This document shows positions 1 through 15,813 of a DNA stretch of 22,642 nucleotides, piece after piece. The DNA comes from a virus, in IMG/VR virus record IMGVR_UViG_3300010354_006220, positions 1 to 22,642 of that record; one strand, given 5' to 3'. Each line of letters begins with the position of its first letter. The first letter of the stretch is position 1. The notes under the pieces were generated by a model. The model saw only the letters and a program-made list of their open reading frames with translations. It had not been told where the DNA came from and did no database searches. The translations under genes were made by a program, and so were the position numbers.

Positions 1-111
1 AACTGGCAGTTATTAAACAAAGTTAAAAGATTTATCACTAAGTCTGACGAGTTTAGAAAAAGAAATATAAAAGATTTTATTCCAGAACTAGCAAAAGAAT
101 TACGTCTATGA
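1..111 (+). CDS. C-terminal end of an unknown protein (5' truncated)
   Basis: The first frame is open from the window edge to a TGA at 109-111 and gives 36 residues beginning NWQLLNKVKRF and ending in LAKELRL. The piece is rich in Lys, Arg and Glu and looks helical. The stop overlaps the next start in an ATGA, the usual sign of translational coupling in this cluster. That coupling supports a real gene end. Too little is present to name a family. Confidence 0.55.
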   Translation, partial: NWQLLNKVKRFITKSDEFRKRNIKDFIPELAKELRL

Positions 112-812
112 ATATCAAAACATCTTTAGAAAAAGAAGGATATTTGTTATATGAAAATTTTATCCCTAGAGTTTTAATAAGTGATTTTAAAAAACGACTT
201 ACTGATCTTTATGCTGTTCGCGCCAGCACTGCTGACAAGATATATGCTGAAGGTAAAGACATAGACAATCTTAAAAATGTTAGTGTATGGTGGAGTCAAA
301 CCGTACATAATTTTGAAGAATTTAAGAAAATTAAAAGGCTTATTGATCCAATCATACAGCATAATTTAGAAAATTTTGATTTTTACGCAAGTGATGTGGT
401 AACAATAAAAGCAGGAAGCCAATGGGTAAGCCCACATATTGATACACCCTATAGATTTAAACAATGGAACTTTGATCAGAGAATGTTAGGGGTTCAATGC
501 ATAGTTGCGTTGGGTAACTTAAGTAAAGAAAGTGCTAGCACAGGGTTGGTACCATTTAGTCAAAAAAGAGAATTTGACATAGACAAGTGTTACACAGGAG
601 TTTATGATCGTTGGTTTAAAGACAATGTTAAACAATATAATATGCCTATAGGAACTCTTTTACTTTATCACTGTAGATTATTACATAGCAGTATGCCTAA
701 CAACACAACTGAAGATAGGCCTGCTTTGTTACTTAATTATCTTAATAAGAATATTATAAATGAAGTTAGTAAAATAGATAATGTTTGGACAAGTAATGGT
801 CAACGTTCCTAA
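108..812 (+). CDS. PhyH-like Fe(II)/2-oxoglutarate dioxygenase
   Basis: This 234-aa protein has the layout of the phytanoyl-CoA dioxygenase (PhyH) group of non-haem Fe(II)/2OG oxygenases. A central HxD metal pair is visible at His110/Asp112 (SPHIDTPYR). A distal His193 lies in LLHSSMPNN, followed 11 residues on by Arg204 in EDRPALLLNY, the expected 2OG-binding Arg. The N-terminus (EGYLLYENFIP) is typical of the family. The start ATG overlaps the preceding stop by 4 bp, and the next gene begins inside its 3' end. Such enzymes hydroxylate small molecules or modified residues and are frequent in marine phages. The substrate here cannot be read from sequence. The family fold is fairly secure; the reaction is inference. 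Confidence 0.72.
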   Translation: MNIKTSLEKEGYLLYENFIPRVLISDFKKRLTDLYAVRASTADKIYAEGKDIDNLKNVSVWWSQTVHNFEEFKKIKRLIDPIIQHNLENFDFYASDVVTIKAGSQWVSPHIDTPYRFKQWNFDQRMLGVQCIVALGNLSKESASTGLVPFSQKREFDIDKCYTGVYDRWFKDNVKQYNMPIGTLLLYHCRLLHSSMPNNTTEDRPALLLNYLNKNIINEVSKIDNVWTSNGQRS

Positions 813-1071
813 AAATTTTCAGGATTTTGACGATGACGATCCTAAAGTAAAAAGAAGATTGTCACGTTGGACATATTGGAATAATTTAAAAATTTTAAAG
901 GCTGAGTTTGAAGAAAAGACAGGATCAAAGGATCATTTTGAATATTTGGTTTGGATAGAAAACACGTATGGATTTAAACCTATTGAAACAAGTGACGGCA
1001 TGATGACTGACGATTTAGATATAGTTGACGAGAAGAAATATTTAGTGTATATTCTTAAGTATGGCCAATGA
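781..1071 (+). CDS. small conserved-type hypothetical protein
   Basis: This is a 96-aa acidic protein that I do not recognise. It has an Asp run (DFDDDDP) near the N-terminus, a Trp/Tyr-rich stretch (RWTYWNNLKIL) and a C-terminal YLVYILKYGQ. A second in-frame ATG at 796 would give 91 residues beginning MVNVPKNF and would shorten the 32-bp overlap with the upstream gene. Neither start has a clear ribosome binding site, so the N-terminus is uncertain. It overlaps the DexA-like gene by 11 bp, which suggests one polycistronic message with coupled translation. It could be a small partner of the exonuclease, but nothing in the sequence proves this. Confidence 0.6.
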   Translation: MFGQVMVNVPKNFQDFDDDDPKVKRRLSRWTYWNNLKILKAEFEEKTGSKDHFEYLVWIENTYGFKPIETSDGMMTDDLDIVDEKKYLVYILKYGQ

Positions 1072-1606
1072 TTTAATGATAGATTTGGAAACGTTAGACA
1101 CAAGTCCGTATTGTGTTATACTAACTATTGGTGTTGTAAGGTTCGATCCGTACGGTGAGGGCATTGCAGAATCTTGGACATTAAAACCTACAGTTGAAGA
1201 TCAAACAGAAAAATACAATCGTATTATTTGTGACAACACAATAAAGTGGTGGAGTGAACAAAACCCGTCAGCACTTGATGAAGCATTTGATGAGCGTGAT
1301 AGATTGCCATTTAAAGATTGTATGGAAGTATTATATAAGATAGGTTGGAATCGCAGAGCAGTATGGAGTCATGGTGCACCTTTTGACGTTGTTGCTGTTG
1401 AAACAGGTATGCGTCAAACTAGTGACAGGCCTAATCCAATACCCTGGCCATTCTATACGGTTCGTGATACACGTACACTATTTGAAGTTGCTAGTGTAAA
1501 ATTGCGTGACGGTGGACATATAACAAGTCACAAAGCAGTAGAAGATGCTGAACGTCAGGCTATTGTAGTACAAGAAGCATATCGTAAGTTAGGACTTAAA
1601 AAGTGA
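1061..1606 (+). CDS. dexA: DexA-like DEDDh 3'-5' exonuclease
   Basis: This 181-aa protein carries the DEDDh exonuclease motifs: Asp8 and Glu10 in MIDLETLDT (Exo I), Asp109 in SHGAPFDVVAVE (Exo II), and His157 and Asp162 in SHKAVEDAERQ (Exo III). The YxVRDTRTLFE segment before Exo III and the NTIKWWSEQ segment match the phage DexA / Rv2179c-like group. T4 DexA is a single-strand 3'-5' exonuclease that helps degrade host DNA or process ends. The length is close to that of a single exonuclease domain with no extra module. The start overlaps the upstream gene by 11 bp; an alternative in-frame ATG lies at 1076, just before the Exo I motif. The stop overlaps the next gene's GTG (GTGA), linking it to the DnaE-like gene. 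Confidence 0.85.
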   Translation: MANDLMIDLETLDTSPYCVILTIGVVRFDPYGEGIAESWTLKPTVEDQTEKYNRIICDNTIKWWSEQNPSALDEAFDERDRLPFKDCMEVLYKIGWNRRAVWSHGAPFDVVAVETGMRQTSDRPNPIPWPFYTVRDTRTLFEVASVKLRDGGHITSHKAVEDAERQAIVVQEAYRKLGLKK

Positions 1607-2211
1607 AATTTAAAAGTGATATTGATATCGATCTAGGAGATCGTGATCAAATCTTAGAAAAGATAGATCATATTCCTGCTGCTATGTACAACGCAAAGGT
1701 ATCAAAACAAATAAATCACCAATCATCTACACGTAAACATGCCACAGGTGTATATGTGACAGAGATTCCATACGATCCAGTCTATGATATGTCAGCAATA
1801 GATTATGAAGTAGCAGAAGAACGTGGATATATGAAAATAGATATGTTAAATGTACATGTCTATAAATTAGTACGTGATGAAAATCATTTACTTGAATTAA
1901 TGCGCGAGCCAGATTGGTCACTATTAACTGATAGTAGTTTTGTTAAAAAACTAATTCACGTTTCAAATCACTATACCACGCTTATGAGTATGCCAGAACC
2001 AGTAAATAGTATACCTAGACTAGCAATGTTTTTGGCTCTTATACGTCCCGGCAAAAAACATTTAATTGGTCAACCTTGGTCAGAGGTTGCAAAAACAATA
2101 TGGCATCGTGAAGAGGGTACTTATAGTTTTAAAAAGTCACACGCAATCGCATACGCGCATCTTGTGGTAGTGCATATGAATTTACTTTCAAATGGAAATA
2201 CAATTACTTAA
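1603..2211 (+). CDS. miniature DnaE/PolIII-alpha-like palm protein
   Basis: This 202-aa protein starts at GTG in a GTGA overlap with the exonuclease gene. It reads like a compressed bacterial DNA polymerase III alpha subunit. SDIDIDLGDRD (5-15) corresponds to the DnaE palm motif with two catalytic Asp (Asp8, Asp10). RKHATGVYV (44-52) corresponds to the KHAGGVVI motif. GYMKIDML (75-82) corresponds to the KFDFLGL motif carrying the third Asp (Asp80). IPRLAMFLALIRPG (137-150) matches the D-ALYRPGP segment, and TYSFKKSHAIAYA (173-185) matches the GYGFNKSHAxAYA segment. The PHP, most fingers, beta-binding and OB regions of a full-length subunit (over 1000 aa) are absent. Whether it polymerises is unknown; it could be an accessory nucleotidyltransferase or a relic. 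The homology is read by eye from motif order. Confidence 0.72.
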   Translation: MKFKSDIDIDLGDRDQILEKIDHIPAAMYNAKVSKQINHQSSTRKHATGVYVTEIPYDPVYDMSAIDYEVAEERGYMKIDMLNVHVYKLVRDENHLLELMREPDWSLLTDSSFVKKLIHVSNHYTTLMSMPEPVNSIPRLAMFLALIRPGKKHLIGQPWSEVAKTIWHREEGTYSFKKSHAIAYAHLVVVHMNLLSNGNTIT

Positions 2212-2677
2212 AGAAAATGATCAAATATTAAGGCAAGTATCAGAGCCTTGGGATTTTACTACCGACGGAGATCCTACTGAGTTAGTCAAATCTATGACTA
2301 AAATTATGTTTGAAAATAATGGCATAGGGCTTGCTGCTCCTCAAGTTGGGGTCATGAAAAGATTGTTTATTATGGGTAACAGTGACAAACTTTTTGTTTG
2401 TATAAACCCAACTTTAATATCAGGGGGAGAGTTTGCTAGAGACCTTGAGGGCTGTTTAAGTTTTCCTGATTTATGGTTGCATGTAAGCAGATATAAACAA
2501 ATACAAGCAACTTACCAAGACATGCTAGGAAATGTCGTAGAGACAACATTAGACGGACTAATTGCTAGGGTTTATCAGCATGAATTAGACCATTTAGATG
2601 GGGTGTGTTTTGATACTAGGGTAGGACCGGTTACACTTGATTTTGCTAAACAAAAACGTAAAAAAAGACTTAAGTAA
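2192..2677 (+). CDS. def: peptide deformylase
   Basis: Removes the formyl group from the initiator Met of nascent proteins in the host cytoplasm. All three family motifs are intact. Motif I GIGLAAPQVG spans 44-53. Motif II EGCLSFP carries metal ligand Cys88. Motif III QHELDHLDG carries His130, Glu131 and His134. At 161 aa it is near full length, slightly shorter than typical bacterial enzymes, and ends in a basic tail (KQKRKKRLK). The N-terminus ILRQVSEP fits the family, so the ATG at 2192 is favoured even though it lies 20 bp inside the upstream gene and lacks a strong Shine-Dalgarno. Phage-encoded deformylases are common in marine myoviruses and are thought to sustain maturation of host or phage proteins during infection. 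The 3' end overlaps the convergent gene by 8 bp. Confidence 0.95.
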   Translation: MEIQLLKENDQILRQVSEPWDFTTDGDPTELVKSMTKIMFENNGIGLAAPQVGVMKRLFIMGNSDKLFVCINPTLISGGEFARDLEGCLSFPDLWLHVSRYKQIQATYQDMLGNVVETTLDGLIARVYQHELDHLDGVCFDTRVGPVTLDFAKQKRKKRLK

Positions 2678-3050
2678 TACGTTTTACAAGTGTAATACTT
2701 TTACGCTTACTGCGGCGTTTATTTAATTCGCTTATACTTAGAATTGGACCGTGTAAGATAACTAAACTCTTATTAGTAAAGGTTCTGAGATAAGGTTTAA
2801 AGATAGCCCATTCGTTTTTCAAAAACAGATTTATGGGTACTAATCTATTACTTTCCCACCACCATATATCGCCCAACTCTAGAAATCTATCTTTAATTTC
2901 TTGGTCAATAATACTACCGTAATCGTAAATGGTAGTAACCACATCATCTCTATTTTGTATGATACCAACATAATCTTGATTGGCATAGGAACATACCGTA
3001 ATGAAAGGATGGTTTTCGCTGAGTTTTTTGAAAAAGTCTTTTGCTAACAT
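2670..3050 (-). CDS. hypothetical protein
   Basis: This 126-aa protein is encoded leftward and is not recognised. Visible features are an N-terminal MLAKDFFKKL, a beta-rich middle (VCSYANQDYVGIIQN), an aromatic WWWESNRLVPINLFLKNEW block that suggests a compact globular fold, and a basic C-terminus (NKRRSKRKSITLVKRIT). A late-type TAAATA motif on the minus strand lies 16 nt upstream of its ATG, so it is probably a late gene transcribed alone. Its end overlaps the deformylase gene by 8 bp. It interrupts an otherwise rightward series. No function can be assigned. Confidence 0.7.
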   Translation of the reverse strand: MLAKDFFKKLSENHPFITVCSYANQDYVGIIQNRDDVVTTIYDYGSIIDQEIKDRFLELGDIWWWESNRLVPINLFLKNEWAIFKPYLRTFTNKSLVILHGPILSISELNKRRSKRKSITLVKRIT

Positions 3051-3984: not shown

Positions 3985-4956
3985 GTGTTCGATATTCTAC
4001 AAGTAATTCCAGGCAAGAAAAAATTAACACAGAGCGGCTGGCATAGTTTTAACGCGGTGTGCTGCGGCTATCGTGGGCATAAAGCCGATCGTCGTGGTAG
4101 AGGTGGTATACGTATGGATGGTGATAACTGGAGTTATCACTGTTTTAACTGTGGCTTTAAATGTAATTTTACTCTAGGAAAAACACTATCCAAAAATACA
4201 CGAACTTTATTAGACTATTGTGGGCTTGATAAAGACCAAGTTGATAAATTCAGTCTTGAAAGTTTACAGCATAGGGATCTATTAGATTTCGCTAAAATTA
4301 TAAAAGAAAAAAAGAAAATAAATTTTAAAGAAGTAACGTTACCCGATGCAGAACTTATTGATCTCTCAAATCCTAATCATAAACTTTTTGTAGACTATCT
4401 TATAAAGAGAAAAGTAAAACCTACAGAATATCCCTTTATGGTAACACCTTATGCTGAGGGAAGGCAAGCAAATCGTATCATCATACCCTACACACATGAA
4501 AATAAAATAGTGGGTCACACTAGTAGGTACTTAGATGACCGAACTCCCAAATTCATAAATGATCAACAGCAAGGTTATGTATTTGGCTATGATTTGCAAA
4601 AGCCGGAATGGCAAGTTGCTATATTAGTTGAAGGTATATTTGATGCACTAAGTATTAATGGATTAGCACTGATGCATAATACCATAAGTGAAACTCAGGC
4701 TACTATTATAAAATCACTGAATAGAAAAGTAATTTTTGTCCCAGACCAAGATAAAACAGGACTTAAAATATGTGATCGCGCACTAGATTTGGGCTTTCAC
4801 GTTAGCATTCCTAACTGGGAAGAAGATGTTAAGGATGTCAATGATGCAGTAGTAAAATATGGCAAACTACCTACATTGTTAAGTATCTTACAAAATGCAA
4901 CAAATAGCAAAATTAAAATAGAAATGATTCGGAGAAAGCATGATAGAAGATTATAA
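3985..4956 (+). CDS. DNA primase, T4 gp61-like (zinc finger + TOPRIM)
   Basis: This 323-aa primase would synthesise RNA primers at the replication fork with the adjacent helicase. The N-terminus has a zinc-ribbon-like arrangement: Cys26/Cys27 and His32, then HCFNCGFKC with Cys53, Cys56 and Cys60. The TOPRIM core follows, with LVEGIFDALS (Glu216) and VPDQDKTG (Asp254, Asp256), and KDVNDAVVKYG further on completes the metal-binding region. Length and order match T4 gp61 and related phage primases. The GTG start is chosen because the conserved N-terminus begins at once and no Shine-Dalgarno precedes it; a TATAAT box ends 6 nt upstream. The gene end overlaps the helicase start by 17 bp, as expected for a primosome pair made together. 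Confidence 0.88.
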   Translation: MFDILQVIPGKKKLTQSGWHSFNAVCCGYRGHKADRRGRGGIRMDGDNWSYHCFNCGFKCNFTLGKTLSKNTRTLLDYCGLDKDQVDKFSLESLQHRDLLDFAKIIKEKKKINFKEVTLPDAELIDLSNPNHKLFVDYLIKRKVKPTEYPFMVTPYAEGRQANRIIIPYTHENKIVGHTSRYLDDRTPKFINDQQQGYVFGYDLQKPEWQVAILVEGIFDALSINGLALMHNTISETQATIIKSLNRKVIFVPDQDKTGLKICDRALDLGFHVSIPNWEEDVKDVNDAVVKYGKLPTLLSILQNATNSKIKIEMIRRKHDRRL

Positions 4957-6352
4957 TATACAAGTACAATCTTTATTTTTAAGAATGATGGTAACTAATG
5001 CTGAGTTGTTTACTCGGGTTATGAACATTTTTAATGCAGATCATTTTGATAAAAGATTACGTCCAGCAGCGGAATTTATATCTGATCATTGTAAGAAGTA
5101 TTCTGTTATGCCTGAGCCTATACAAATCAAGGCTACTACAGATTTAGACATAGAACCTGTGTCTGATTTAGATGAAGGTCACTATGAATGGTTTTTAACT
5201 GAATTTGAGAATTTTACTAAGCGCCAGGCACTAGAAAAGGCAATATTGAAATCGGCAGATTTATTAGAGAAAGGCGATTATGGTCCTGTTGAAAAATTAA
5301 TTAAAGATGCAGTACAAATAAGTTTGCAACGAGATATGGGTACAGATTACTTTGCTGACCCGAGGGGCAGACTTATGCATCTGAAATCAACCAACGGTCA
5401 AATCAGCACAGGCTGGCCCAGCATCGATCATAAACTCTATGGTGGTATGAATCGAGGAGAATTAAACATTTTTGCTGCAGGGTCTGGAGTAGGCAAATCA
5501 CTATTTTTACAAAACTTAGCAGTTAACTGGGTTTTACAAAATCTCAATGGTGTGTACTTAACTTTAGAACTTGCAGAAGACCTATGTTCAAAACGTATTG
5601 ATAGTATGGTTACTGATATCAATCAACAAGATATTTACAGAGACCTTGACAACGTAGAAATGAAAGTCAAAATGGTTGCTAAGAAGGCAGGAACATTAAT
5701 TATAAAATATATGCCTGCTCAGAGCAACGTTAACGACATAAGAGCATATGTTAAGGAACTGCAAATTCAAAAAAATCTGAAGATTGACTTTTTATGTGTT
5801 GACTACCTAGACTTAATCATGCCTGTAACTGCTAAAGTCAGCCCTAGTGATTTGTTTGTCAAAGACAAGTATGTATCAGAAGAACTGCGTAACTTGGCTA
5901 AGGAACTGAACGTATTGTTCGTAACGGCAAGTCAGTTGAATCGTAGCGCAGTTGAAGAAATCGAATTTGATCACAGTCACATTGCTGGTGGTATCAGTAA
6001 AATCAATACTGCTGATAACGTGTTTGGTATCTTTACAAGTAGAAGTTTAAAGGAAAAGGGTGCATATCAAGTTCAACTTATGAAAACACGAAGCAGTTCT
6101 GGAGTTGGGCAAAAAATAGAGTTATCATTTAATGTTAATACTTTAAGAATAACTGATCCTGATCCAGAAGCAAACACTAGATATAAACCACAACCTAGCG
6201 GAGTTGAACTATTAAATCAAATCAAAAGTGTTGGTAAAATTGGATCAGTAAACGATACAATACAAGAGACAATAGAGCCTGCAAATAAGCATGTAGAAGC
6301 CAATGCAGACACAGTAAAACTGCGTAGTTTACTTAATTCTTTAAAGAAATAA
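4940..6352 (+). CDS. replicative DNA helicase, T4 gp41 / DnaB-like
   Basis: This 470-aa RecA-fold helicase unwinds the fork 5'-3' and forms the primosome with the primase just upstream. The N-terminal helical domain (1-150) precedes the ATPase core. Walker A is GSGVGKS (181-187), the catalytic Glu210 lies in YLTLELAED, and Walker B is VDYLDLI with Asp288. Further on are FVTASQLNRSA and the HIAGGISKINTADNV segment typical of DnaB/gp41 motif H3-H4. KTRSSSGVG carries the likely arginine finger region. Length matches gp41 (about 475 aa). The ATG lies inside the primase 3' end (17-bp overlap), which implies coupling. The C-terminal 70 residues are variable and may bind the loader or primase. Confidence 0.92.
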   Translation: MIEDYNIQVQSLFLRMMVTNAELFTRVMNIFNADHFDKRLRPAAEFISDHCKKYSVMPEPIQIKATTDLDIEPVSDLDEGHYEWFLTEFENFTKRQALEKAILKSADLLEKGDYGPVEKLIKDAVQISLQRDMGTDYFADPRGRLMHLKSTNGQISTGWPSIDHKLYGGMNRGELNIFAAGSGVGKSLFLQNLAVNWVLQNLNGVYLTLELAEDLCSKRIDSMVTDINQQDIYRDLDNVEMKVKMVAKKAGTLIIKYMPAQSNVNDIRAYVKELQIQKNLKIDFLCVDYLDLIMPVTAKVSPSDLFVKDKYVSEELRNLAKELNVLFVTASQLNRSAVEEIEFDHSHIAGGISKINTADNVFGIFTSRSLKEKGAYQVQLMKTRSSSGVGQKIELSFNVNTLRITDPDPEANTRYKPQPSGVELLNQIKSVGKIGSVNDTIQETIEPANKHVEANADTVKLRSLLNSLKK

Positions 6353-11241: not shown

Positions 11242-11565
11242 GTGATGATTACAATAACAAATACTGCCAAAAATAGATTTCGTGAACAACTTAGCGAACG
11301 TGGTAAGGGATTAGGAATACGTTTAGGTATAACCAAAACTGGTTGTAGTGGTTATGCTTATAAGATTGAGTTTGCTGATGAATGGAAGTCCGAAGATCAT
11401 TTGTCTATACATGATAATCTTTATATTTTTATAACTCAAGAAGCCCAACAATATTTAAATGGAATGACAGTCGATTATATCAAAAAAGGTTTAAATGAAC
11501 AATTTGAATTTATTAATCCAAACGAAACTGGGCGTTGTGGATGCGGTGAAAGTTTTACTGTATGA
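11242..11565 (+). CDS. A-type iron-sulfur carrier (IscA/SufA/HesB)
   Basis: A 107-aa protein with the three invariant A-type cysteines: Cys35 in KTGCSGYAY, and Cys99 and Cys101 in GRCGCGESF. From the ATG at 11242 both length and cysteine numbering equal those of E. coli IscA, which supports this start over the ATG at 11245. Such proteins bind and deliver Fe-S clusters to apo-enzymes. Phage versions probably support Fe-S enzymes during infection, but the client is unknown. It is the first gene of a run of three, has its own sigma70-like promoter and overlaps the next gene by 4 bp (ATGA). It is complete with no missing key residue. Confidence 0.93.
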   Translation: MMITITNTAKNRFREQLSERGKGLGIRLGITKTGCSGYAYKIEFADEWKSEDHLSIHDNLYIFITQEAQQYLNGMTVDYIKKGLNEQFEFINPNETGRCGCGESFTV

Positions 11566-13110: not shown

Positions 13111-15813
13111 ATGGCAATTATACAGATTTCTAAGATTCAGCAGAGATCAGGCGATTTAGTCGATCTACCCCAACTTGATACAGCAGAATTTGGCTTTGCA
13201 GAGGATGCAAAACGCCTTTTCATAGGTAAAGAAAATCCAAATGAGAACATAGAAGTTTTAACTTCCTATTCTGAGATAGCATTTAGTCAACTACAAGGTA
13301 GTGTAGGTAATCTTGATATAAGTCCAGTTACTATTGAAGATGGTCAAGTATTAGCATATAACGGAACAGATTGGGTTAATAGAGGGGGTAATGCTGGTGG
13401 ATTACTTACTTTTGGTGATGTTAGTAACGTTAAAATAGATGGTGGTGCTATTGGATACGTATTAGAAACTGACGGCACCGGTAACCTCAGTTGGACTCCA
13501 AAGTCAACAATAATCGCATTTATTGAAAATATTACAGTTGGTAATGGTGCTGCTGGTAATTTAACCACAGTAACTACAACACAAGATAATTTCTTTACTG
13601 AAGGCGCACAAATTACAGTAACCAATGTTCCTGGCATATCAGGAAGCATAGCAGATTTAGTTAATGCAAATACCTATTATGTTGATGTTATTACTTCAAA
13701 TACATTTGCTTTATGTACATCTGCTGGCACTCCACCAAGTGGTAATTTAGATGCTACAGGATATACAATATTCCCATATACATCGGTAACGGATACAACC
13801 GCTGGGTTAAATGAAATTACTGTTGGAAACAGTAATCCATTTGCTACAGATTACACTGTAAAATTTTTAGGAAATGTGTCTGGTACAGGTTTGAACAATG
13901 ATACCACTTACTACGTATATTCTATTCCTAGTGCAACTACTATTAAAGTATCTACATCAGATGATGGTAACGTATCAAACATAGTATCACTTGTAAACAA
14001 AACAGGTTTAACTGCAAATGTTTATGCGACCGGCGGTCGTATGGTATCTATTGTTGGTGGTTCAGGTTCTGCAGGTGCAGGTGGCTCAACTAACTCAGTA
14101 CAATACAATGTTAGTGGTGTACTTGCTGGAGACGGCAATTTAACTTATAATCCTGTATCAAAATTGTTTACGGTCACTAATGGTAATATCAATACAGGTA
14201 ATGTTAACGCTACTGGTAAAGTTGTAGCAAGTCAACTTGAATCAAATGTTGGCAATGGAACTGCCCCGTTGATTGTTTCTTCATTTACTAGAGTTCCTAA
14301 TTTAAGTGTGGCTTATGCCAACGTTTCAGATTTTGGTGTGGTGACTACTACAGGATCAGGTAATTATTATCCAGTATTTGTAAATGGTAGCACTACAGGA
14401 AATTATGCATTAGGCTCTAATTCAGCCTTTACATTTAATGCAGCAACAGGAGCATTAAGTGCTACATTATTGACAGGTACACTAACTACAGCAGCACAAC
14501 CTAACGTCACAAGTTTTGGTAATGCAACAACTATTACTGCTGCAGGTAATTTAAATCCAAGCGCCAACGTTACATATAATTTAGGTAATAATACTAATCG
14601 TTGGAATGACTTATATCTGTCAGGCAGCACTATATTCTTAGGTGCTCAAACTATAGGTGCTAATAGCACACATGTTTCAATTTCTGGAATACTTAGTGCT
14701 AATGTAAGTGGTGCTGCAACTACGGCTAATACTGTAGTTAACAATGCACAACCTAACATTACATCTGTAGGAACATTAACATCACTAGCAGTTACAGGTA
14801 ATGTTACAGCAGGAAATTTAGCTGGCGCAAATTTAGTAAGCGCAAATTTCTTAACTGGCACATTAACGACCGCTGCACAACCAAATATTACTAGTGTTGG
14901 TACACTAACATCATTGTCAGTAACCGGTACTCTAAGTGCTGGAAACATGATTGTAAATCCAGGTAGTTTTCAAGGAAGTGGCAACGGTATATTTAATTTA
15001 AACGCAAGCAACTTATCAACGGGTACTGTTCCTGCTGCTCGATTAAGTGGTATTTACACAATAGATATCATAGGTTATGCAAGTACTGTTACAACAGCAG
15101 CACAACCAAATATAACAAGTGTTGGTACATTAACTTCATTAGCAGTAACAGGAAACATTACTGCTGGTAACGTTTATGCAAATAGTGGCACGATTGGTGC
15201 AAGTTTATTGACTGGTACATTGACAACGGCTGCACAACCTAACATTACTAGTGTTGGTACTCTAACAAGTTTAGCAGTTACTGGTAATGTAACTTCTGGT
15301 AACGTTTATGCAAACAGCGGAACAATTGGTGCAGGAACAATATTAACTACAGTGTTGACAACTGGTGCTAACACTACAGCAGGCACTATAACAGGAAATT
15401 GGTCATTAAGTGCTGGATCACAACTAACAGCAACTTATGCTGACTTGGCAGAATATTATGCAGGCGATCAAAATTATATTCCAGGCACAGTATTAGAATT
15501 TGGTGGTGATAAGGAAGTAACTTTAGCAGGTATAGAAAGTAATAAATTAGCGGGTGTTGTTTCTAGTGATCCTGCTTATGTTATGAATGGTGATATTAAA
15601 GCCGAGCATCCAATCATAGTTGCGTTGATAGGTCGTGTCCCAGTTCGTGTAACTGGTCATGTAAGCAAAGGTGATATGCTTGTTAGTGCAGGAAACGGAT
15701 TAGCCAAATCATCAATCTTAACACCTAAGATAGGAACAGTAATTGGCAAGGCTATTGAAAATAAATGGACAGACGGGGAAGGTGTTGTTGAAGTAATGGT
15801 AGGAAGATTATAA
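13111..15813 (+). CDS. tail fibre / receptor-binding structural protein with repeats
   Basis: The largest gene, 900 aa. Residues 1-60 (MAIIQISKIQQRSG...LPQLDTAEFGFAEDAKRLFIG) match the N-terminal anchor of many phage fibre proteins. Residues 60-450 are Gly/Asn/Thr-rich beta structure. Five repeats of the AAQPN(I/V)TS type, begun at residues 461, 545, 588, 663 and 707, form a shaft. The C-terminus from about 775 (DLAEYYAGDQNYIPGTVLEF, KLAGVVSSDPAYVMN, then EGVVEVMVGRL) is a widely shared fibre-tip domain, probably involved in trimer closure or receptor contact. Repeats are conserved at protein level with synonymous changes. It is transcribed from a late motif and overlaps the leftward glycosyltransferase-like gene by 6 bp. 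Host recognition is inferred. Confidence 0.85.
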   Translation: MAIIQISKIQQRSGDLVDLPQLDTAEFGFAEDAKRLFIGKENPNENIEVLTSYSEIAFSQLQGSVGNLDISPVTIEDGQVLAYNGTDWVNRGGNAGGLLTFGDVSNVKIDGGAIGYVLETDGTGNLSWTPKSTIIAFIENITVGNGAAGNLTTVTTTQDNFFTEGAQITVTNVPGISGSIADLVNANTYYVDVITSNTFALCTSAGTPPSGNLDATGYTIFPYTSVTDTTAGLNEITVGNSNPFATDYTVKFLGNVSGTGLNNDTTYYVYSIPSATTIKVSTSDDGNVSNIVSLVNKTGLTANVYATGGRMVSIVGGSGSAGAGGSTNSVQYNVSGVLAGDGNLTYNPVSKLFTVTNGNINTGNVNATGKVVASQLESNVGNGTAPLIVSSFTRVPNLSVAYANVSDFGVVTTTGSGNYYPVFVNGSTTGNYALGSNSAFTFNAATGALSATLLTGTLTTAAQPNVTSFGNATTITAAGNLNPSANVTYNLGNNTNRWNDLYLSGSTIFLGAQTIGANSTHVSISGILSANVSGAATTANTVVNNAQPNITSVGTLTSLAVTGNVTAGNLAGANLVSANFLTGTLTTAAQPNITSVGTLTSLSVTGTLSAGNMIVNPGSFQGSGNGIFNLNASNLSTGTVPAARLSGIYTIDIIGYASTVTTAAQPNITSVGTLTSLAVTGNITAGNVYANSGTIGASLLTGTLTTAAQPNITSVGTLTSLAVTGNVTSGNVYANSGTIGAGTILTTVLTTGANTTAGTITGNWSLSAGSQLTATYADLAEYYAGDQNYIPGTVLEFGGDKEVTLAGIESNKLAGVVSSDPAYVMNGDIKAEHPIIVALIGRVPVRVTGHVSKGDMLVSAGNGLAKSSILTPKIGTVIGKAIENKWTDGEGVVEVMVGRL
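14464..15345 (+). repeat. coding repeats of the tail fibre shaft
   Basis: Five imperfect copies encode TTAAQPNITSVGTLTSLAVTGN-like units. Their AAQPN/NAQPN codons lie near 14491, 14743, 14872, 15097 and 15229. Copy 1 is divergent (FGNATTITAAGN). Copies 4 and 5 share a YANSGTIGA spacer. Third-base differences show old, selected repeats. Confidence 0.85.

Follow-up and report, generated by a model that had tools for sequence, protein, structure and literature searches.

Can a phage protein that keeps the catalytic palm of a bacterial replicative polymerase, and little else, still act as a polymerase, and in what company would it do so? The question is raised by an open reading frame of 202 aa at positions 1603-2211 (+) of a viral DNA stretch of 22,642 bases (IMG/VR record IMGVR_UViG_3300010354_006220; the window in the following). 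The initial annotation recognized in it five segments of DnaE, and all five were recovered in the sequence in the order given. The frame starts with GTG, and in the bases GTGA its start overlaps the stop of the exonuclease frame that precedes it (1061-1606), as had also been described correctly; the same start site is found in most relatives, but as ATG. We consider it highly likely that the protein is the C-terminal half (C-half) of a minimal two-subunit DNA polymerase III alpha (Pol III alpha) of a T4-related phage, and that its active site is rebuilt by a partner protein, the N-half. The gene family was already described in 2021: Iyer et al. reported that the minimal, split Pol III alpha of group 2.2 (T4-related) jumbo phages consists of two proteins encoded by distant genes, an N-terminal one that binds NTP and a C-terminal one that binds Mg and the template, and that it occurs beside a family B polymerase with which it might cooperate in strand synthesis or repair (PMC7824862). 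What is new here are the exact seam, the missing thumb, the complementary structural coverage of one chain, the one-to-one co-occurrence of the halves, the measured constraint (low dN/dS), the corrected catalytic residues and the incidental nature of a link with the exonuclease. The relevant features of the window are:

108-812, plus strand: phytanoyl-CoA dioxygenase-like protein (PF05721)
1061-1606, plus strand: Rv2179c/DexA-like 3'-5' exonuclease (Pfam PF16473, 1.1e-25; PHROG 255)
1603-2211, plus strand: putative C-half, i.e. the metal-binding palm and reduced fingers of a split minimal Pol III alpha (PHROG 11778, hhalign, model alignment, invariant Asp)
2192-2677, plus strand: peptide deformylase (PF01327)
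2670-3050, minus strand: convergent gene for a 126-aa protein, function unassigned (PHROG 11637, E 1.6e-30)
3985-4956, plus strand: DNA primase, a conserved neighbour and not a part of the enzyme (PHROG 47, E 1.5e-36)
4940-6352, plus strand: DnaB-type replicative helicase, likewise a conserved neighbour and not a part of the enzyme (PHROG 19, E 1.8e-75; Pfam DnaB_C, 2.6e-22)
11242-11565, plus strand: phage-borne iron-sulphur cluster assembly protein (PF01521, E 1.5e-17)
13111-15813, plus strand: 900-aa protein with many near-identical TAAQPNITSVGTLTSLAVTGN-type repeats and a weak Peptidase_G2 autoproteolysis match, possibly a tail fibre

The window also encodes a T4-type tail sheath stabiliser (PF16724), which together with the phage primase and the DnaB-type helicase fits a T4-related myovirus, probably a jumbo phage. 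Relatives of the C-half are encoded in at least 595 IMG/VR stretches and 63 phage records; the nearest homologue in an isolated phage is that of Phosso (44.5% identity). Among 84,980 genomes of bacteria and archaea that were scanned, the C-half turned up in 7 metagenome-assembled contigs; the family is confined almost entirely to phages. One of these 'bacterial' contigs measures 335 kb and is labelled Neomarinimicrobiota; they are probably jumbo phage contigs that were binned into bacterial genomes.

The homology to Pol III alpha is evident at the level of families. The protein matches PHROG 11778 ('DNA polymerase') with an E-value of 4.9e-56, and a profile-profile alignment (hhalign) of 82 homologues with seven DnaE proteins (that of E. 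coli and six phage-borne ones) yielded a probability of 97% (E 6e-11), where control profiles (one reversed and 15 column-shuffled) reached at most 0.7%. The likeness to Pol III alpha therefore exceeds chance. Searches of Pfam, NCBIfam and the PDB with the single C-half sequence returned nothing usable, scanning the 82 homologues against Pfam produced nothing beyond sporadic low-scoring matches that resembled chance, and the C-half profile, run against PDB sequences, retrieved one unrelated chain (E 0.38); the empty single-sequence searches reflect a limit of sensitivity and do not count against homology. The AlphaFold2 model of the protein (mean pLDDT 90.9) could be aligned to 14 C-family entries over 177-199 residues with Z-scores of 6.4-9.7 (PolC 9.7, Taq Pol III 9.6), and within the E. 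coli Pol III alpha chain it aligned only to residues 397-787. The best unrelated chain reached Z 3.5, and unrelated folds that matched at Z 2-3.5 were treated as background. The assignment to the C-family palm, for which a profile-profile search and a structure prediction had been proposed as checks, is borne out by all three lines (PHROG 11778, hhalign and structural alignment).

The alignment also shows which residues are involved. DIDID in the phage protein lines up with DFDVD in E. coli Pol III alpha, so that Asp6, Asp8 and Asp10 correspond to D401, D403 and D405, and within the KID segment Lys78 and Asp80 correspond to K553 and D555. In the E. coli enzyme the Mg ions are held by D401, D403 and D555, and D405, which is conserved across all DnaE groups and differs from PolC, is not a metal ligand (PMC3919608). 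Judged by this correspondence, the metal-binding aspartates of the phage protein are Asp6, Asp8 and Asp80; the pair Asp8/Asp10 that was named originally is one step out of register. Asp6, Asp8, Asp10, Lys78 and Asp80 are invariant among the 82 homologues, the catalytic aspartates are kept even in the divergent phages RAS14 and XacN1, and the predicted strands that carry the catalytic residues span positions 7-11 and 79-83 of the model.

Since dS between the window and the relatives nearest to it had reached saturation, selection was measured on the closer pairs among the relatives: the 23 pairs with measurable dS (NG86) showed a median dN/dS of 0.067 and a maximum of 0.21. The purifying selection and the invariant metal ligands argue strongly against decay, and the frame is a real, constrained gene homologous to the C-family Pol III alpha. 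That the gene would be what is left of a bacterial dnaE, captured and now in decay, could be surmised from its length, far below that of DnaE, and from a study of phage CBB in which the Pol III alpha-like protein was described as truncated (PMC5259590). The hundreds of homologues of near-constant length, the invariant catalytic residues at a dN/dS of about 0.07, the fixed neighbours and a one-to-one partner (see below) leave this reading practically no chance, and the low ratio (median 0.067, 23 pairs) rules it out; the absence of any obvious sign of a relic and the presence of all catalytic aspartates had been pointed out correctly from the start.

What the protein lacks is equally informative. 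The PHP, beta-clamp-binding and OB parts are absent, in agreement with the initial annotation. The distance between Asp10 and His46 is 26 residues in most members of the family and 36 in the protein of the window, a 10-residue insertion included, versus 106 residues in E. coli (D405-H511), where this stretch holds the thumb. The distance between Arg148 and Phe176 is 28 residues versus 117 in E. coli (R639-F756), and therefore most of the fingers are gone. Several residues that are invariant in the DnaE set used for comparison (F609, Q610, Q687-Q689 and R709) fall in the changed or missing parts, so that the activity could differ from ordinary polymerisation. The C-half begins just before the first catalytic strand and is without the GS motif, which in DnaE precedes that strand; PHP, palm, thumb and fingers do not occur together in one phage polypeptide.

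The missing GS motif was recovered elsewhere in related genomes. A search with PF07733 in RaK2, Atu_ph07, Phosso and phi30-3 identified one N-half each, encoded by a distant gene and matching profile positions 18-98 of 260. The N-half proteins (PHROG 11127) are about 170 aa long, contain an invariant GRGSS motif and end in EFLK or similar. Counted from the first residue of GRGSS to the chain end, they have 33 residues in 79 of the 80 IMG/VR loci and 34 in the remaining one; in E. coli the stretch from GRGSG to FLN (G361-N393) also counts 33 residues, and the DxDxD segment starts 8 residues later, at D401, the counterpart of residue 6 of the C-half. All 80 N-half genes stop at this seam and a fused gene was not seen among them. 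The model of the N-half (pLDDT 89.2) was matched only weakly by Foldseek alone (best E 0.049), and its residues 1-67 are barely covered by the structural alignments; the two predicted halves nevertheless align to adjoining stretches of one solved chain, N-half and C-half covering, respectively, residues 279-393 and 397-787 in E. coli, 305-413 and 417-814 in M. tuberculosis, 822-964 and 967-1307 in PolC (9qrn), and 295-455 and 458-844 in Taq Pol III. The GS-motif region is also found close to the C-terminus in proteins of the phage families PHROG 13169 and 7513 (461-463 aa). These may represent additional split Pol III alpha genes, severed at about the same loop and with a longer N-terminal part.

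The halves occur together. Eleven out of eleven isolated phages (RaK2, Atu_ph07, Phosso, phi30-3, RAS14, SCTP-2, XacN1, Vibrio 2.275.O, 121Q, CBB and PA5oct) matched one N-half, one C-half and a family B polymerase; each of the nine IMG/VR records checked at lengths of 240 kb or more contained both halves, which brings the number of large genomes to 20, and the family B polymerase was found in the three long IMG/VR records tested. Records with a single half measured 51-201 kb and may be fragments. The two genes were separated by as little as some 14 kb in RAS14 and by over 100 kb in SCTP-2 and Phosso. In CBB and in the Vibrio phage, PF07733 produced one additional weak match each, below the cut-off; that of CBB (NC_041878.1, 53183-53395; positions 151-226, E 5.8e-4) lies apart from both halves. 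The window, a fragment of its genome, contains no N-half, and the partner in this virus is therefore assumed from the relatives.

Because the GS motif that completes the nucleotide site (R362-G363-S364 in E. coli) sits in a separate, distant gene in every large genome tested, the protein is not a stand-alone polymerase, and the 'unusually small polymerase' of the initial annotation is not supported in that form. The related idea, that the 202-aa protein by itself is a miniature or template-independent nucleotidyltransferase, could draw on its three catalytic aspartates and on the confident fold predicted for it alone. It is very improbable in view of the separate gene for the GS motif, which accompanies the C-half throughout these large genomes, and of the structural matches, the 14 strong ones all being C-family replicases. 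The matches listed include no family X polymerase or terminal transferase, an absence that does not by itself speak against such a fold.

The suggested pairing with the exonuclease did not hold up either. Among the 72 loci with at least 2 kb upstream of the C-half, 40 contained an exonuclease homologue, directly adjacent in only 10, and the flanks examined in RaK2, Atu_ph07, Phosso and phi30-3 contained none; the link is weak, incidental and not conserved. Many close relatives also have the dioxygenase-like gene (PF05721) upstream of their exonuclease. Downstream, the last 20 bases of the C-half are shared with the start of the deformylase gene, and a deformylase homologue was found in 26 of 60 related loci. 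Homologues of the primase and the helicase occurred in 37 and 36, respectively, of the 42 C-half loci with at least 4.9 kb downstream. The antisense PHROG 11637 gene was present in 60/60 C-half loci with at least 1.5 kb downstream and is thus tied to the C-half more tightly than any replication gene; its 126-aa product found no match in Pfam. Of the 80 N-half loci, for their part, 79 have a GroES-like gene downstream and 69 a gp44 clamp-loader gene; the loci without the latter are mostly truncated.

How could the two proteins work? The C-half would contribute the Asp triad that binds the metals, two further conserved residues (Lys78 and His46) and shortened fingers, and the N-half, from its distant gene beside those for GroES and the gp44 clamp loader, would supply the GS motif. 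In Pol III this motif holds the phosphates of the incoming nucleotide. The halves probably bind via the cut palm sheet, in such a way that the GRGSS loop would face the three aspartates and one active site would be formed. We are rather confident that the proteins belong to the split Pol III alpha family and assemble into one nucleotidyl-transferring unit. A different reading is that the complex is no longer a polymerase, having become a structural or regulatory subunit of the replisome whose metal site would serve another phosphoryl transfer or nucleotide binding. The loss of the thumb, of much of the fingers and of the clamp-binding parts (26-36 versus 106 and 28 versus 117 residues) would be in line with this, as would the family B polymerase already present in the genomes, and the low dN/dS fits both readings; the metal ligands, Lys78 and GRGSS are, however, invariant across both families, beyond the needs of a scaffold, and a non-polymerase complex seems unlikely.

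If the pair is a polymerase, poor processivity is to be expected because PHP, thumb and clamp-binding parts are missing, and we therefore propose, with low confidence, an auxiliary role: primer extension or the filling of short gaps beside the family B replicase. The context of primase, helicase and clamp-loader genes tentatively suggests the same. In a more specific version, about which we remain doubtful, a two-subunit C-family polymerase without thumb and PHP would extend primers, after which the family B replicase would take over. A possible comparison is Bacillus, where DnaE hands over to PolC.

The origin of the pair is a separate matter, on which the biochemical mechanism does not depend. 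Iyer et al. suggested an evolutionary reading in which it is a surviving ancestral Pol III core (PMC7824862), rather than a reduced and split DnaE. The pair indeed holds little beyond the nucleotidyltransferase core and is nearly restricted to phages (the 7 contigs among 84,980 genomes). Against this, Asp10 is kept as the counterpart of D405, a residue that is DnaE-wide and different in PolC (PMC3919608), and the break lies in a loop between intact elements, as gene fission predicts. We consider an ancestral core improbable; the branch of the phage pair is long. If the pair is active, no smaller C-family polymerase would be known to us: its two chains total about 370 residues. Activity would then show which parts of Pol III alpha catalysis can spare, reveal polymerases of two unrelated families in one phage replisome and provide a direct test of the ancestral suggestion. 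Annotation would also gain: the papers on CBB and Atu_ph07 each name one piece Pol III alpha (PMC5259590, PMC6102473), and by gene number and position these pieces are the N-halves; in CBB and its relatives the label Pol III alpha goes to the N-half and 'putative membrane protein' to the C-half.

Compared to known systems, the split Pol III alpha of Iyer et al. (C-half PHROG 11778, N-half PHROG 11127) includes the same C-terminal Mg- and template-binding piece and differs in nothing essential; the member described here comes from an uncultured virus, on a fragment that does not reach the N-half. No experimental study of the split enzyme was found in the literature searched, which misses most subscription journals. 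Cyanobacterial DnaE is likewise one Pol III alpha made from two genes; there the halves are intein-split and spliced into one chain (cited in PMC3919608), whereas the phage pair has no room for intein sequence: the N-half ends at the seam, and only 5 residues of the C-half precede the catalytic strand. E. coli DnaE (Pol III alpha, 1160 aa) shares the fold of the C-half over some 200 residues, and its Asp triad, D405, H511, K553, R639-P640, F756, H760 and Y764 have counterparts there; the phage enzyme differs in that it is cut before the DxDxD strand, totals about 370 aa, leaves little room for a thumb and is without PHP, most of the fingers, and the clamp-binding, OB and C-terminal parts. PolC of Gram-positive bacteria has a fold that is just as close (Z 9.7; Taq Pol III, 9.6), and its thumb is reduced too (PMC3919608); unlike PolC, the phage protein is without a built-in exonuclease and retains the DnaE-type Asp10, the equivalent of D405.
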